Below are positions 42,603 to 49,091 of a stretch of 64,000 nucleotides of DNA, piece after piece; the first letter of the stretch is position 1; every line of letters starts with the position of its first letter. The translations under genes were made by a program, and so were the position numbers. Under the pieces are notes generated by a model. It had not been told where the DNA came from. It saw only the letters and a program-made list of their open reading frames with translations, and did not search any database. The stretch is from Saccharopolyspora soli (GTDB lineage Bacteria > Actinomycetota > Actinomycetes > Mycobacteriales > Pseudonocardiaceae), in NCBI RefSeq assembly GCF_022678645.1, contig NZ_JALBWV010000029.1, positions 1 through 64,000 on the forward strand, given 5' to 3'.

Positions 42603-42739
42603 CGGGCAATTATGCGGACTGCCCGGTCGGTGACCTCCGGAGAGGTGGCCTGGCGGAACAGCGCCGTCGCGATTCCACGATAGGTGGACATCAGGAAATG
42701 TTGCTCGACACGATCTCGAAACTGTGTTCGAATCGAGTC

Positions 42740-43834
42740 ATGAGATGGGAACGTCAACGGGTGGTGCCTCCGAAAGAGGGCGCGAGTGCCCCGGAGCTTC
42801 CTTTGGGGTTGCCCGAAGGCGCCCCTAGTTCGTCGGAGCAGCGTCCGCGGGCGGGGCTGCGCCTGCCGGAGCCGGTGCCGATCGAGGCGGGCACGGAGGA
42901 GGCGTACGCGATCGAGATCCACGCGAAGTCGGTGCTGAACCGGGTGCCGGGGGAGTCCCAGGTGCCGTTTCGCTGGACGGTGAATCCTTACAGAGGTTGC
43001 ACCCATGCTTGCATTTATTGTTTTGCCCGCCGCACTCACACGTACTTGGACCTGGACGCGGGCCATGACTTCGACAGCAAGATCGTCGTCAAGGTCAACG
43101 CCGGGGCGTTGCTGCGCAAGGAGTTGGCCAGCCCGCGTTGGACCGGTGAACCGATCGCGATGGGCACCAATACCGATCCGTACCAGCGCGCCGAGGGGCG
43201 TTATCGGCTGATGCGGGAGATCATCGCGGCGCTGCGCGATCGCGCCAACCCGTTCTCGATCCTGACCAAGGGGACGCTGATCCTGCGGGACTTGGATCTG
43301 ATTACGGAGGCTGCGCAGCGGGCCAGGGTCTCGGTGGCGGTGTCGGTGGGGTCGGTCAATGAGGGTTTGTGGCGGGCAGTGGAGCCGGGGGCGCCATCGC
43401 CGCTGCGTCGTCTCGACGTTGTGCGGCGGTTTGCCGAGGCGGGCATCGGGTGCTCGGTCTTGATGGCGCCGATCCTGCCCGGACTCAGCGACTCGTCAGC
43501 CGAGATTGATCGTACGGTGGCCGCGATTGCCGAGGCGGGGGCGACGAGTCTGACGCCGATAGTGCTGCATCTGCGTCCGGGTGCGCGCGAGTGGTATCAC
43601 GGGTGGCTGCGCAGTCAGCGGCCCGAACTGCTGCCGTTGTATGAGCGGCTTTACCGCAACGGCGCGTACACCCCGAAGTCGTATCAGCGGGAAGTCGCCA
43701 ACCTGGTGGAGCAGGCCAAGCGTCGTCATGGGTTGGCTCACCCGCAGCGACCGGAGAATTTCCGCGAACAGCAGCATGATCCCCCGCAGTCCGACGCGGA
43801 CCGGGACCGGGAGCGCCAGCTCACTCTGTTGTGA
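42740..43834 (+). CDS. Radical SAM protein, Rv2578c family (intact copy)
   Basis: A protein of 364 residues. The iron-sulfur motif is Cys-x3-Cys-x2-Cys in RGCTHACIYCFARRTH; NPYRGC precedes it, as in the Rv2578c/SplB-like family. MRWERQR at the N terminus is typical. Function is unestablished, though the fold is close to DNA-repair spore photoproduct lyases. Base use is atypical: ATT, TTT, TGT and GTT codons appear, especially from 42985-43035 and in the 3' half. A 3' remnant of a second copy lies at 47031-47578. Position after hisS matches mycobacteria. Confidence 0.9.
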   Translation: MRWERQRVVPPKEGASAPELPLGLPEGAPSSSEQRPRAGLRLPEPVPIEAGTEEAYAIEIHAKSVLNRVPGESQVPFRWTVNPYRGCTHACIYCFARRTHTYLDLDAGHDFDSKIVVKVNAGALLRKELASPRWTGEPIAMGTNTDPYQRAEGRYRLMREIIAALRDRANPFSILTKGTLILRDLDLITEAAQRARVSVAVSVGSVNEGLWRAVEPGAPSPLRRLDVVRRFAEAGIGCSVLMAPILPGLSDSSAEIDRTVAAIAEAGATSLTPIVLHLRPGAREWYHGWLRSQRPELLPLYERLYRNGAYTPKSYQREVANLVEQAKRRHGLAHPQRPENFREQQHDPPQSDADRDRERQLTLL

Positions 43835-43909
43835 CGCGACCGTCGAGGCGCACAACCTCGCCGCCTACAGCGGGAAATCAGAATCCCCAGCGCCCGCCTG
43901 TCTACGTGG

Positions 43910-44107
43910 TCAGCAGGCGTCGAACCGGCCGTCCTTGATTGCGTCGAGGAACGCGAACCACTGCGAAGAGGTCACGGTGACGTATCCAGCAGCGCGGTTC
44001 TTGGTGTCTCAGACACCGACAGCGTCGCTAGTCCCGCCGACCTCAACGCAGGACTGCGAGTTGGTGGAGCGGCTGGACTTGCGCCAGTTCGTGATCTCGA
44101 TCGTCAA
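43910..44107 (-). pseudogene. DUF397 protein gene with in-frame TGA
   Basis: Read on the minus strand from TTG 44107, the frame gives LTIEITNWRKSSRSTNSQ, SCVEVG, then a TGA at 44011-44009 (codon 33), then DTKNRAAGYVTVTSSQWFAFLDAIKDGRF and a terminal stop at 43910. This is the DUF397 pattern, where VRDTK is normal, so the stop most likely replaced CGA by a C-to-T change. DUF397 proteins usually sit beside an XRE regulator; none is seen here. With 65 codons it is close to full family length. Confidence 0.85.
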
Positions 44108-44642
44108 GGCCCCGGTTCCCTTTCCTGCGGTCGTTGCCGCTGTCGGCGATCTGATCTATCCACCCGAGGCACCTTCCAGCACATCGTCTACCGACGCTGG
44201 ACTTCCCGGAACGGACCTCCCCGTCAACTCCTGACGCAGCCGAAGCTGCCGGGGCACTCCAAGCGATGCAGGAAGCCGCCTACACCGAAGCGAGGGCACC
44301 CACACTGGCCGCGGCGGGCGGACCCTGCGGTCGTCGCCGCGCTTCCACGGTGGCTTCGGGTGGACGTTGTCGAACACGAGTTCACCAGGGTTCATGCTGT
44401 TCATGATGGCGCTGAGCTGCCGGTCTATGTCGAGAACAGTGTTGTCGTCGGGCGCAGACTGGAAGGGGGATGGCGTGCAGACCCGCCCCGTCGGCGGTGC
44501 GGACTCTGCCGCTGTGCGAGTCCGCCCGTGGTGATGGGACAAGCTCGCTGCCTAGCTGGCCGACAGGGCCCGATGAGTTTCGCTCTCGCGAGCAGTCTGA
44601 CTTCCAGAGCCGACATTCAGACAAGATCGGAGATCGAATCCC
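44108..44642. other. Degraded intergenic stretch
   Basis: No convincing gene. The minus strand has a short segment (about 44385-44470) with the reading LDIDRQLSAIMNSMNPGEL, which looks protein-like, but its ends are low-complexity, so it may be a fragment. The right end reaches the start of the dihydrofolate-reductase-like pseudogene. Confidence 0.5.
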
Positions 44643-45194
44643 GTGCGCACACTCTTCTCTTACGTGGCGATCAGCCTTGACGGCTACTACGAGGGCCCGA
44701 ACGGCGAGTTCGACTGGCCGAATGTCGACGCGGAGTACTTCGAGTTCGCCAACCAGAGCAACGCTTACATCGACACACTGCTGTTCGGCCGGACTGGATA
44801 CGAGCACATGGCCGCACACTGGCCGAACGCCACCGGGCCCGACCCCGAGATCGTCTAGTTCATGAACAGCGTGGAGAAGGTCGTAGTCTCCTCCACGCTT
44901 GAGAAGGCGGAGTGGAACAACACGACCCTCGTAGGCAGCAACGACGTCGCCACGACCATCAAGGCCCTGAAAGGGCAGCCGGGCAAGGAGATCGCGCTGT
45001 TCGGCAGCGTGACGCTGACCGCGAGCCTGCTCGAACTCGGCCTGATCGACGAGCTGCGCGTGCTCGTGAACCCGCTCATCCTGGGCGAGGGCCGTTCGCT
45101 GTTCTCGACGCTGAACAAGCGCGTCCCGCTCGAACTGTGGCGGACCACGACGTTCCGCTCCGGCAACGTCCTGCTGACCTACCGCCCCGTCTGA
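44643..45194 (+). pseudogene. Dihydrofolate reductase-like (RibD C-terminal) gene with in-frame TAG
   Basis: The single frame encodes a full-length RibD-C/DHFR-family protein: VRTLFSYVAISLDGYYEGP, TLLFGRTGYEHMA, then TAG at 44856-44858 (codon 72), then FMNSVEKVVVSSTL, EIALFGSVTLTASLLELGLID, LVNPLILGEGRSLF and LLTYRPV. Length would be 183 codons, normal for this family of uncharacterised reductases. A sense codon of the xAG type was probably replaced. Readthrough or an internal start at ATG 44862 cannot be excluded, but the NADPH site would be split. The surroundings contain other broken genes. Confidence 0.88.
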
Positions 45195-45888
45195 ATCGCG
45201 CGGACAGGCCCGTCGGCGCAGGGCACGGGTCGCCGTGCGCCGACAGCATCACTGACGGCGACGGCATGGCCGATCGACCTGGGCGAAGTCCCGGTCCAGC
45301 ACGGTCCAAAACTCGGTGGCTTCGTCGGGCATCACCACCTTCTGCACCAGCACCGCGCACGTCCTTGCTTCCGGCGACAACGACGAGCCCGGAAGCTATC
45401 GACGCGGTGATCGAAGCGGCGATGACACGCCGACGACGACACCCCAGATAACGCGTTCGAGCGCCAGGCGAAGTGTCGTCGCTGCGCAGTTGTCGAGCTC
45501 TCGTCCGGAAGTCGACTCGTCTAAGTGCGAAAACGCCACGGGTGTCAAATCTCTTGACGCCTAAGTGTAAAAAAGCACAGGTCAAGAGGGGTGCCAACAA
45601 AGTTGGCTGTACTCGGGGTTTCAAGGCAGTCTTGAAGGTGCCCTTGACTAGTAGCGGCGTCCTGACGAGGTGAAACCGCGCGCGCACCTTCGACGTCCAT
45701 TGTGGATGGTGGGCGGGATTCGACCGCCGTACCTCCTTGCCATTCGGCGCGGGGAGCGACAGTAATCCGCGGCGGTTGTTCCGACCGAAACCGAACTAGA
45801 CGACTGATTCCGACTTGTTTGCCGGTCATCGACGTGGTGCAGGCCGCACGGATCGGCGTTGCGACGTCCGCCCTGTAGCTTCTACTGC
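45195..45888. other. Low-GC degraded region without intact gene
   Basis: About 690 bp. A short minus-strand frame (45249-45332) reads MPDEATEFWTVLDRDF, reminiscent of an integrase N terminus, but it stops after 27 codons. From 45520 to 45660 the DNA is AT-richer and has near-repeats CTAAGTGCGAAAA (45523-45535) and CTAAGTGTAAAAA (45561-45573). These could be remains of a mobile element. No complete frame is supported. Confidence 0.5.
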
Positions 45889-46317
45889 GTGAATCTTGAC
45901 GGTCTACCTAGGGCGGAGTTCGCGTTCCCCGGGCCACTGCGGGATCAGTTGGTGGCCGCGATCCTGTCCGGCGCGAAGACCTCGACCTCTGGACTGGTGC
46001 TGGCGTATCAGCGTGAGAACGAGCCGCTGCCCAGCGTCGGCCAGCAATTGGCGGTGGTGGACTCAGAGGATCGGCGAGTCGCGGCGATCGAGCTGACCGA
46101 GGTGCGGGTGGTCCGGCTCGCCGATGTAGACCTGCAGCACGCCCTGGATGAGGGTGAGGGCGATGAGTCAGTTGCGCAATGGCGGGCCGGGCACGAAAGG
46201 TTCTGGCACAGCGCGGAGGTGCGTGCGGAACTGGGCGACCCTGGTTTCACCGTGAACGATGACACCTTGGTGCTGACCCAGCGCTTTCGGCTTGTGCACA
46301 CTGTGGAAGCCGTGTGA
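45889..46317 (+). CDS. ASCH domain protein
   Basis: A protein of 142 residues. It starts with VNLDGLPRAEFAFPGPLRDQLVAAILSGAKTSTSG, then VGQQLAVVDSEDRRVAAIELTEVRVVRLADV, ending with GDDTLVLTQRF-like DDTLVLTQRFRLV. These are ASCH features: small beta-barrel domains thought to bind RNA; some cleave RNA or remove modified nucleosides. Start at GTG 45889; the frame opens to 45859. It is the only gene in the 43.9-48.1 kb island that looks intact. Confidence 0.82.
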   Translation: MNLDGLPRAEFAFPGPLRDQLVAAILSGAKTSTSGLVLAYQRENEPLPSVGQQLAVVDSEDRRVAAIELTEVRVVRLADVDLQHALDEGEGDESVAQWRAGHERFWHSAEVRAELGDPGFTVNDDTLVLTQRFRLVHTVEAV

Positions 46318-46932
46318 TTCCTTTGTTCGGGAGGTGAACCACTCGTCATACGTAGTTCTGCATTCGCCACAGCGCAGAGCGACTGTTTCGCGGTCGCCGA
46401 TCGGCCACAGTGGACCATCGCAATCAGGGCAAGGCGCAGTTGGTTTCGGTGCCTCGCCAGCCAATCGGCGGGCTTGGGCGTGCAGCTCACGGAGGTCGGC
46501 GGCGAACTCGTCGACCCAATGCCGTCCAGTGCACCAGTAGATGCGCCCGCGCAGGTACCGCGCTTCGCTGGCAATCGTGGCCGTATCGCTCGCCGTAGGT
46601 CGGCGGCTCTTCAGCAACCCATCGAGCGAGCGCGGCCAGGGTGCCGAGGATCGAACGCACGTCGCCGTCGTCGGGGCCGATGGCGTGCGGCAGGCTGCGT
46701 GGATCGAGTGCGGCGATCACGTCGAGCCGGACCGGTGGCCTGCTTCCATAGCCGGGTGAGCGGCGGCCACTGTCGCCACCGCAGTCGAGGGTTGAGCGCG
46801 GCGGCGAACTCCTCGACTTCGCGTAGCCAGCGGCGCACCAGCTCGGCGCACTGGGGGGCAGGCGTAGCTGCCGGGATCGGCGGCGCGTTGGCAGCGTCCG
46901 ATCGTGCACGGCTGGGTGTCGGTGGCGTTCAC
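46318..46932 (-). pseudogene. CxxC zinc-type protein gene broken by about three frameshifts
   Basis: On the minus strand, GTG 46932 follows AGGAGG by seven bases and gives VNATDTQPCTIGRCQRAADPGSYACP. A one-base change in the run of six Cs then continues as CAELVRRWLREVEEFAAAL. A second shift leads to GRRSPGYGSRPPVRLDVIAALDPRS and LAALARWVAEE. A third leads to TASDTATIASEARYLRG, CTGRHWVDEFAADLRELHAQARRL, then CPDCDGPLW and LRCGECRTTYDEW. Together these make one sensible protein with N- and C-terminal cysteine pairs, like small phage or mobile-element proteins of actinobacteria. Sequencing error is possible for a C-run, less so for three shifts. Confidence 0.75.
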
Positions 46933-47030
46933 GCGGTCACCTCCTGTCGGGCGTCGGCTGCGGCGAGACCGAGCATGGCGAGCAGTTGCCCGCAGTCGGC
47001 CGCGTCTCGGGCGCTGCTGGCGACATACAG

Positions 47031-47578
47031 CGCGATCTCGACCTGATCTTGCAGGCCGCCGAGGTGGCGCCGGTGTCGGTGGCGGTGTCCGTCGGGTCGG
47101 TCGACGAACGCCTGTGGCGGGCTGTCGAGCCGGGCGCGCCGTCGCCACGGCGACGGCTGGACGTGGTGCGGCGGTTCGCCGATGCCGGTATCGGCTGCTC
47201 GGTGCTGATGGCCCCGATCCTGCCTGGACTGAGCGACGCGCCGGAGCAGATCGACATGACGGTGCGGGAGTTGGCCCCCAGGCAGGCGCGGCTAACGTCA
47301 CGCCGCTGCGGCTGCACCTGCGGCCCGGCGCGCGCGAGTGGTTCCGGGCCTGGTTGCAGCGTGGGCATCCCGAACTGGTGCCGAGTTACGCCAGGTTGTA
47401 CCGGGAGGGCTCCTACCTGCCGAAGTCGTACCAGCGGGAGGTGCTCGCCCTGGTGGCCGACGCGAAGCGCCGCCACGGCATCGGATCGTCGCGGATGCCG
47501 GAGTTCCGCGACGTATCGGCCGGGGCCGCCCGGTCCGTTGCCGATGGGGAGGGGGTGCGCCAGCTCAGCTTGCTGTGA
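47031..47578 (+). pseudogene. 3' remnant of a second Rv2578c-family radical SAM gene, frameshifted
   Basis: Starting at RDLDLILQAAEV it aligns with codons from about 182 onward of the intact copy at 42740-43834: VSVAVSVGSVDERLWRAVEPGAPSP, RRLDVVRRFADAGIGCSVLM. Near 47285-47300 one frameshift moves to LRLHLRPGAREWF, LPKSYQREVLALVADAKRRHG and the end VRQLSLL. The iron-sulfur cysteine motif and the 5' half are absent. Its GC-rich codons look more like the host genome than the intact copy does. Confidence 0.85.
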
Positions 47579-47616
47579 CCCGGCCGGACCGGGGGTGTGG
47601 AATCCTGGTTCAGGAA

Positions 47617-48051
47617 ATGCACATCATTTTCGATTGGGATAAGACAATGATAAGGAAAACGATTGCTGGTGACTATCGGAACGTGGCGGCTGGTTTCTGG
47701 AATGTAAAAGCGCTGGCGGCGTTGTTCGCAGTTCGGCGAGCGTTCAGAAGGCCATCGATTCCTGGTTACCTTGCGTGCTGCCCGCTCGACGTGCGCCCGG
47801 ATCGGGCTAACTCGCATGGATTAGGCGTGACGGGGGTGGCCCGCCGCCAGGCACGCGGCTACGGCCGCTTTTCACCGCTCCCGCAGCGTGCACCGCCGCA
47901 GGCTCTTCGAGGGTGCCATGCGGGTACACGCCGCACGCCGAGCTGCCTCGGGGGAACAGCACCGACGTGGTGGACATGCCTGGATATCGCGGACCAGGGA
48001 GCCGAGAAGGCGGTTGCTTCCGCCTCGCAAGCCGATCCGCGCACCCGCTAG
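47617..48051 (+). pseudogene. Low-GC HAD-like N-terminal fragment
   Basis: ATG 47617 opens a 144-codon frame. The first 30 codons (MHIIFDWDKTMIRKTIAGD...) are low in GC and include DWDKT, which resembles HAD motif I (DxDx[T/V]). From about 47830 the composition becomes repeat-like and GC-rich, and the rest (RRQARGYGRFSPLP...) looks non-coding. AGGAA sits only two bases before the ATG. I read it as a truncated hydrolase gene or chance frame. Bases 47840-48050 contain a GC-rich structured stretch. Confidence 0.4.
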
Positions 48052-49091
48052 CGCGTCGTGGTGCGCGAGGATGTGCCGGAGCCCAGGTGTTCCTCGGGCT
48101 GCCACCGGACGCCGAAGACGCCCATGCCGAAGTCCAGCGCCACCGCGTGGGTGCGACCGAAACGGTCCACCGCCAGCGGCTTCGGCGGCTCGACTTCCTG
48201 CGTCCTGGAGTCGCCGACGTAGCTCTCGCACTTGGTCGGTGGGTGCGCGGGATCGAACTGCAACTCGACCACGTACTGCCGCACGGGCAGCCGGAAGAGT
48301 CGGCAGAAGCTGTGCTCGACCTCGTTCGGTCCGGTCGGCGGGTCGATGATCTCGTACTCCAGCAGCAGCGTCTCACCGCGCGCCAGCGCCCGGTCGAACA
48401 GCAGCTCCGCCACCACCAGGTCGCGGGCGTGGTCGGTGAGCACCTGGCCGAGTCGGCAGGACCGGATCGGGCGGATGATCGGCGGGGTCTCGCTGGACGA
48501 GGCGCCGTCGAACATGATCACCCAGCGGTCGACACCGTTGGTCTCGGCCCGGACCAGCTTGCGAGTGCGGATTTTGCGCAGCTCACCGCGCTGGTCGACG
48601 TGCACCACGTCGTGGTGGCTGAGCCGGGCGAGCTTGCTGTCATGGCTGGTGTCGATCTTGGTGAGCAGTTCGGCGGCCGACTCGTTCTCCGACCAGAGCG
48701 CGCTCAGCGGTGGCGCTTCGGCCGGGGCCTGTCGGGTGCGGCCGCGGGGGCGGGGCGGTCCCAGCAGGGCTGACAACGAGCTCTCCGGAACGCCCAGGAC
48801 CTGCTCCAGCTGCTGCAGCGCGAGCAGCGAGTCGGGACGCTCCGGGCGTCGGCGACCGGACTGCCAGTAACTCAGCGCGGTGATGCTGACCGGGGTGCCG
48901 CGGGCGCGCAGCCGGTGCTGGATGCGTTCCAGGCTCAACCGGCTCGCGCGGATCGCGGTGCGCAGGGCGGCTTCGAACGGACCGGTCCGGAGCAGCTCGG
49001 AGAGTTCGGCCGACAATGCATTCGCTCCTTGCTGCGCGCTGCGGACGGCCTGGTGGGCGGCCGGGCGAGCCTCGGTTTTCGGGCCGGTCAT
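48048..49091 (-). CDS. Helix-turn-helix regulator with large C-terminal domain
   Basis: A protein of 347 residues. A DNA-binding segment at about 50-85 (LERIQHRLRARG, SITALSYWQSGRRRPER) is followed by a linker and a C-terminal domain of about 200 residues rich in beta-type segments (DRWVIMFDGA, LLEYEIIDPPTG, RQYVVELQFDPAHPP). It resembles actinobacterial XRE-type regulators. The target is unknown. The start codon ATG 49091 lies in front of a divergent 480-bp region leading to aspS. The last base of the gene is at the island edge. Confidence 0.78.
   Translation of the reverse strand: MTGPKTEARPAAHQAVRSAQQGANALSAELSELLRTGPFEAALRTAIRASRLSLERIQHRLRARGTPVSITALSYWQSGRRRPERPDSLLALQQLEQVLGVPESSLSALLGPPRPRGRTRQAPAEAPPLSALWSENESAAELLTKIDTSHDSKLARLSHHDVVHVDQRGELRKIRTRKLVRAETNGVDRWVIMFDGASSSETPPIIRPIRSCRLGQVLTDHARDLVVAELLFDRALARGETLLLEYEIIDPPTGPNEVEHSFCRLFRLPVRQYVVELQFDPAHPPTKCESYVGDSRTQEVEPPKPLAVDRFGRTHAVALDFGMGVFGVRWQPEEHLGSGTSSRTTTR

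Follow-up and report, generated by a model that had tools for sequence, protein, structure and literature searches.

A chimeric radical SAM gene and its orphaned native 3' end in Saccharopolyspora soli

A foreign 3' half and a displaced native one

The main finding of this work is a well-preserved displacement of the 3' end of an ordinary gene, found in 64,000 nucleotides of Saccharopolyspora soli DNA (positions 1 to 64,000 of contig NZ_JALBWV010000029.1, assembly GCF_022678645.1; hereafter the window). The window lies on contig C106 of a genome of 9.35 Mb in 184 contigs (G000). The gene concerned, at 42740..43834 on the plus strand, encodes a radical SAM (rSAM) protein of the Rv2578c family (364 aa; PF04055; NF038135, rSAM_Rv2578c, with 473.7 bits at a curated cut-off of 430), whose CX3CX2C cluster motif, CTHACIYC, occupies codons 87-94. 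This intact gene is a chimera of native-like and foreign parts, the foreign allele being designated B* here, and the displaced native 3' part (codons 183-364) lies on the same strand at 47031..47578, beyond an insert of about 3.2 kb (43835..47030).

As shown by DNA identity to the genes of other genomes of the genus, the B* half comprises codons 184-364 (43289..43834), with 91% identity to G008 and 69% to G017, and it follows a native-like tract at codons 101-183 (43040..43288; 92% to G017 and 87% to G008). Further upstream, codons 37-100 (42848..43039) are closest to G008 (93%) and include an AT-rich stretch at the CX3CX2C motif, which is also an intein site, and codons 1-36 (42740..42847) form an N-terminus of a third type, with 74-79% identity to G014, G020 and the full copy of G015, 66% to G017 and 51% to G008. 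The same division was found at informative sites, defined as the positions of the codon alignment where G008 departs from the native consensus of G017, G021, G005 and G006. In codons 41-100 the window gene agrees with G008 at 27 of 30 such sites; it has the native state at 18 of 24 in codons 101-183, but at only 15 of the 128 that follow codon 183. The best single breakpoint after codon 100, at nucleotides 549-555 of the gene, was reached in 0 of 2000 site shuffles, which assume independent sites, and a second set of 83 sites displayed the native state at 9 of 9 sites in codons 103-179 and a mostly foreign state from codon 186.

DNA homology to the native rSAM gene resumes at 47030/47031, corresponding to codon 183 (gene nucleotides 546/547), and the switch in the intact gene thus coincides with the start of the remnant. 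This coincidence points to a single opening of the native gene, with little or no loss of sequence there. The remnant matches in two frames, with codons 181-266 at 47025-47282 and codons 263-364 in another frame at 47273-47575, so that the second copy is itself frameshifted near 47275. In the tree of the 3' half it stands with G021, G017, G005 and G006 in a native clade of 11 rows (support 100/100), outside which the intact copy groups with G008 (91/91, under the usual mark of 95); the tree of the 5' half (codons 40-180) likewise joins the intact copy to G008 (99/95), and the position among the remaining genes is not resolved there. Had the native gene been duplicated in tandem and one copy then decayed, two copies in the same orientation would be left, as observed, but the 3' halves of the two copies share only 62-76% DNA identity per segment and the copies occupy different tree positions, so that this explanation is extremely improbable.

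The GC content of third codon positions (GC3), followed along the intact gene in steps of 20 codons, lies at 95-100% in the steps that begin at codons 31-61 and 101-111, 75-85% at codons 121-151 and 90-95% at 161-171, and from codon 181 on it is 70-85%, with one step at 90%; it is only 45% at codons 81-100. In the remnant it is 88-90%. The original prediction, made from the sequence of the window, had described the intact copy, a second copy surviving from about codon 182 with GC-rich codons, and broken genes between them, and had read these as a segment that entered the native gene, brought in a new 3' half and displaced the native one to the far end. This geometry was right, and the separate trees of the two halves that it had proposed agree with it; the agent that it had named, a site-specific element, was not supported (see below), so that the prediction as a whole is partly supported. 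Its claim of unusual codon use, especially in the 3' half, holds in that GC3 there is mostly below that of the host-like stretches and fails to single out this half, since codons 1-30 and 71-100 are also low. Similarly, its view of the 5' half as native applies to codons 101-183 and not to codons 1-36 or 37-100. The outcome that would have spoken against it, with relatives also holding the downstream remnant, was not seen: in the stretches fetched, the 10 native-type relatives gave no second rSAM match downstream (E up to 0.01).

Exchanges of gene ends in relatives

An rSAM match was found in 22 of the 22 genus genomes examined, full-length in 21 and weak (32%) in G019, the nearest one being that of Saccharopolyspora shandongensis, with 89-91% protein identity. 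Among the 21 full-length genomes, 10 carry the native 3' type (G017, G021, G005, G006, G014, G004, G013, G002, G012 and G003), five the B* tail (the window, G008, G018, G020 and the full copy of G015), and five belong to a second lineage with a related tail (G016, G011, G007, G001 and G009); G010 stands apart. The spacing from the rSAM gene to the next gene, measured between matched ends, is 200-267 bp in all 10 native-type relatives, 4.2 kb in the window, 1.6 kb in G018 and 5.1 kb in G020. In G018 the switch falls at codons 287-294, followed by a 1.2-kb insert, after which a decayed remnant of the native gene starts near codon 297 (window numbering), and in G020 the switch falls near codons 275-291, followed by a 5.1-kb insert. 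The native gene of G015 is split at codons 91-94, at the intein site, and a full B* copy stands directly after the N-terminal piece (L048:2526-3909 and L049:350-1171). The exchange in G014 concerns codons 1-100, which show 57% and 81% identity to the sister genome G002 vs 95% and 98% after codon 101, and about 1.1 kb of extra DNA lies upstream of its rSAM gene. Beyond the genus, G111 carries a chimeric gene (L095:3365-4444) whose first part groups with its own genus and whose 3' part is B*-like down to the tail SDADRDRERQLSLL. The switch codons thus differ between genomes carrying exchanged rSAM ends, and displacement of the 3' end is probably recurrent in the genus.

The closeness of the B* genes of the window and of G008 could be taken for shared descent, a reading rejected on a tree of five flanking proteins. 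There G008 is sister to G017 (support 100), whose native gene is intact, and the window falls outside the group of G008, G017, G005 and G006 (support 98), so that the gene of G008 is best read as a separate acquisition. No close copy of the rSAM gene was found in phages (8 of 50,697 records matched, with at most 30% identity) or in plasmids (69 of 72,556 records, with at most 62%; a DNA search gave 6 records), and the five pattern matches in IMG/VR were all unrelated to it.

The native gene order comprises an MBL-fold gene, hisS, p40066, a YibE/F gene, rSAM, a helix-turn-helix-like gene and aspS. It was seen in most of the genus loci fetched, and none of these neighbours occurs in the stretches fetched from G007, G001 and G009. 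In the window the locus is fixed by the native neighbour next before aspS (48048..49091, minus strand), which has no Pfam or NCBIfam match and which we take to be the helix-turn-helix-like gene; between the remnant and this gene, the intergenic DNA at 47579..47806 is native and common to relatives without the insert. Two further observations concern the relatives. The halves of the split gene of G015 are on contigs C14 and C8, and the end of C14 adjoins an IS3 transposase. A second decayed rSAM fragment of G018 (L051:7439-7812) lies about 70 kb from the gene and within a few kb of both an integrase and Cas-like open reading frames, the latter named from sequence.

The insert and its possible capture

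The insert is a patchwork of pieces from unrelated places, and the broken genes noticed earlier within it were confirmed. From left to right it holds a gene interrupted by two in-frame stops (43914..44132, minus strand), presumably DUF397-like, which resembles many copies in the genus; a RibD_C segment (44609..45236, plus strand) with an in-frame TAG read directly at 44856-44858 and 91-92% identity to copies located elsewhere in G008 and G017; an ASCH-domain gene (45859..46317, plus strand), with 82% identity to contig C3 of G001; and a broken prophage-type gene with the truncated end of the next one (46320..47030, minus strand), with 75% identity to contig C124 of the window's own genome. At the usual RibD_C site of this genome (C163) the flanking genes are about 140 bp apart with no RibD_C between them, and the copy in the insert is the only one found in the genome. 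The RibD_C pseudogene therefore seems to have left its usual site, and an apparent piece of host chromosome sits in the insert. The phage-type gene is split over several frames near 46.3-47.0 kb, and its counterpart on C124 adjoins a RusA-like gene (phrog_34) and an SSB-like gene, the latter named from its sequence. Homology to this counterpart stops at 47030, so that the right joint lies inside the gene, whose own start is cut off, and is non-homologous, with the phage-type gene fused to native codon 183. The left joint, in contrast, is the in-frame switch from native to B* and is homologous. All that the two joints have in common is coding-level similarity at codons 183-188, and age could have erased a core sequence.

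These joints, homologous on the left and not on the right, fit a one-sided invasion followed by end joining, as do the mixed filler and the presence of Ku, which was found in 22 of the 22 genus genomes. Therefore, with slightly more confidence than doubt, we hypothesize that homology-facilitated illegitimate recombination made the chimera, the insert and the orphan. Near codon 183 the native gene would have suffered a break or been invaded by a donor strand. The left end of the gene would have paired with a divergent B* allele from another actinomycete, and the B* 3' half with its downstream DNA would have been copied or joined there. Illegitimate joining to native codon 183 would then have sealed the other end and trapped prophage-type and apparent host-chromosome fragments in between, and the product would be a full-length chimera on the native promoter, the insert and the orphan native 3' half. 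The break, the invasion, the end joining, the order of these events and a working chimera are what we infer from sequence comparison. In the published description of this process (PMC3240628), one end is likewise anchored by homology and the other joined without it; here, in contrast, the event is deduced from old sequence and the insert is a patchwork of several pieces.

A single homologous crossover with circular or conjugated DNA carrying a complete B* gene would also yield a chimera with native 5' and B* 3' parts and place the native 3' end at the far side, and mosaic genes are common in the genus. It would produce two hybrids, the second of which must then have lost its 5' part; this deletion would need to stop at the crossover by chance, and where the phage-type gene meets native codon 183 no B* bases are seen. 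We consider this alternative unlikely.

Prophage e14 and phage 21 integrate at icd, replacing the 3' end of the gene and leaving the native end at the far side. The arrangement in the window is alike in both respects, but no integrase or core was found here and the breakpoints vary between genomes. If an element of this kind had brought a replacement 3' end into an attachment site at codon 183 and had then lost its integrase, this would explain the exact insertion point, with no visible loss of native bases, and the prophage-type DNA at the right end. Phage Samy, which uses a serine integrase, has its attB in a Streptomyces gene of the same Rv2578c family, in a region called an integration hotspot, and the target gene was reported as inactivated in the native host (PMC12924846). 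Foreign DNA thus targets the same gene family in both cases; here, however, the predicted Samy core has a single match in the vicinity of the joints (47092-47103, within the remnant), about 66 bp from the right one and with 2 mismatches, and core matches in the window number 10 vs 14.3 expected by chance, so that Samy-type attachment at the joint was rejected. In addition, C106 has no integrase match (the 35 PF00589, Phage_integrase, and one PF07508, Recombinase, matches of the genome all lie elsewhere), no recombinase family was detected with Pfam among the open reading frames of the insert that were scanned, and the right joint cuts the phage-type gene internally. Switch codons that vary between genomes also argue against one attachment site and are expected of homologous pairing. 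A site-specific element is accordingly clearly unlikely as the agent. A tRNA-Gln at 43836-43912, considered as an integration target, was dropped: it was called by ARAGORN alone and is probably a false call, since Rfam reports nothing of the kind at this place up to E = 1 and no tRNA was seen in the 34 loci of relatives that were scanned.

Several observations weigh against the capture by one-sided invasion and end joining as set out above, or against the simple division of the gene on which it builds. Besides the assumption made in the site shuffle, 6 of the 24 informative sites in codons 101-183 side with G008. Nearly all genomes are conserved over codons 136-180, where the second-lineage genes have 84-90% identity to the window, so that the native assignment of this part rests on a few dozen sites. 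The foreign-like tracts in the 5' half, of the third type at codons 1-36 and G008-like at 37-100, imply that several exchanges occurred. No donor of the insert was found, and secondary deletions could have shaped the right joint. As for the relatives, the exact coincidence of switch and remnant is seen in the window only: the remnant of G018 is weak (51%, E 0.004, at the protein level) and begins 3-10 codons past the switch, no native remnant is visible in G020 or G111, and in G008 about 16 bp separate the B* gene from the terminal 11 or so native bases, with no long insert.

Displacement of C-terminal parts has been proposed for Rhs genes and effector genes of the type VI secretion system, in which a constant 5' part receives a new end and the old one is orphaned downstream (PMC5361080). 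The window gene is alike in these points, and an orphan old 3' end on a shared 5' part also occurs in G018, in weak and decayed form. The difference is that a widespread radical SAM enzyme is affected here, with no toxin or immunity family among the open reading frames of the insert scanned with Pfam or NCBIfam, and that the exchanged ends are homologous. If our reading is true, the 3'-end displacement with orphan tails that is known from polymorphic toxins has remodelled an ordinary enzyme gene as well, trees built from whole genes of this rSAM family mix histories, an intein target, the Samy phage target and frequent recombination are linked in one gene, and the locus keeps its joints well enough for the study of integrase-free capture of foreign DNA in actinomycetes. 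Displacement of an rSAM 3' end was not found in the published literature searched, a coverage that mostly leaves aside subscription papers.

Upstream box, C-terminal tail and intein site

The box TCGAAACTGTGTTCGA was read directly at 42716..42731, in the native upstream region just before the start of the rSAM gene, and we take it to be of the LexA/SOS type. Outside the genus, 22 of 26 loci have a box of the form CGAA-N6-TTCG close to the presumed start, and literature linking Rv2578c with LexA was searched for and none was found. At the other end of the gene, the tail QL[SAT]LL (43817-43831 in the window) terminates all 21 full-length proteins of the genus, and G042 has QLSLF; six other rows ended early in the alignment used for this comparison. 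The tail presumably resembles a sliding-clamp binding motif. Together, the SOS-like box and the clamp-motif-like tail suggest a putative role of the rSAM gene in DNA repair.

The codons of the cluster motif are also a frequent intein site. A search of 150 family genomes gave a match in 125; in 57 of the 150, residue 93, directly ahead of Cys94, is exactly where the best match starts. Two of these proteins were scanned, and both contain a LAGLIDADG domain and exceed the cut-off of the family model for intein-containing members. None of the 21 full-length matches in the genus is interrupted at this site. We put forward, tentatively and with considerable doubt, that a mobile B* 3' allele of an SOS-controlled rSAM gene may spread across species and at least one other genus by repeated capture of ends, the gene being breakage-prone through a LAGLIDADG intein homing endonuclease acting at the cluster-motif codons; the AT-rich tract of the window, G008 and G015 would then be a homing scar or a cleavage-immune allele. 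Among the literature matches listed for inteins, radical SAM and homing endonucleases and for gene conversion in Saccharopolyspora, nothing related was found.

The simplest form of homing, in which the AT-rich tract came from an intein-bearing donor of the same family, was tried and is not supported, since intein-bearing relatives mostly lack AT-rich flanks: of 22 intein loci 18 could be parsed, and in these the 17 codons preceding the intein have a GC3 of 65-100% and the 8 following it one of 62-100%, with partial exceptions in L126 (65% before) and L119 (62% after). The recoded AT-rich stretch of the window itself lies at 42983-43024, at the CX3CX2C motif and intein site. Over 26 codons at this site GC3 is 54% in the window, 65% in G008 and 54% in the full copy of G015. 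Of the 19 other genes in the alignment, 17 have 77-100%, and the remaining two are G014 (69%) and G003 (73%). The exact pattern was found in one of 394 genomes of the class, the window's own, and in no viral contig. A DNA search with an 81-bp tract matched 24 of 298 genomes of the order, including the window's own, the best of the others having 80% identity over the whole tract, and nearly the same AT-rich string is carried by G008, the full copy of G015 and a Dactylosporangium metagenome-assembled genome (L036).

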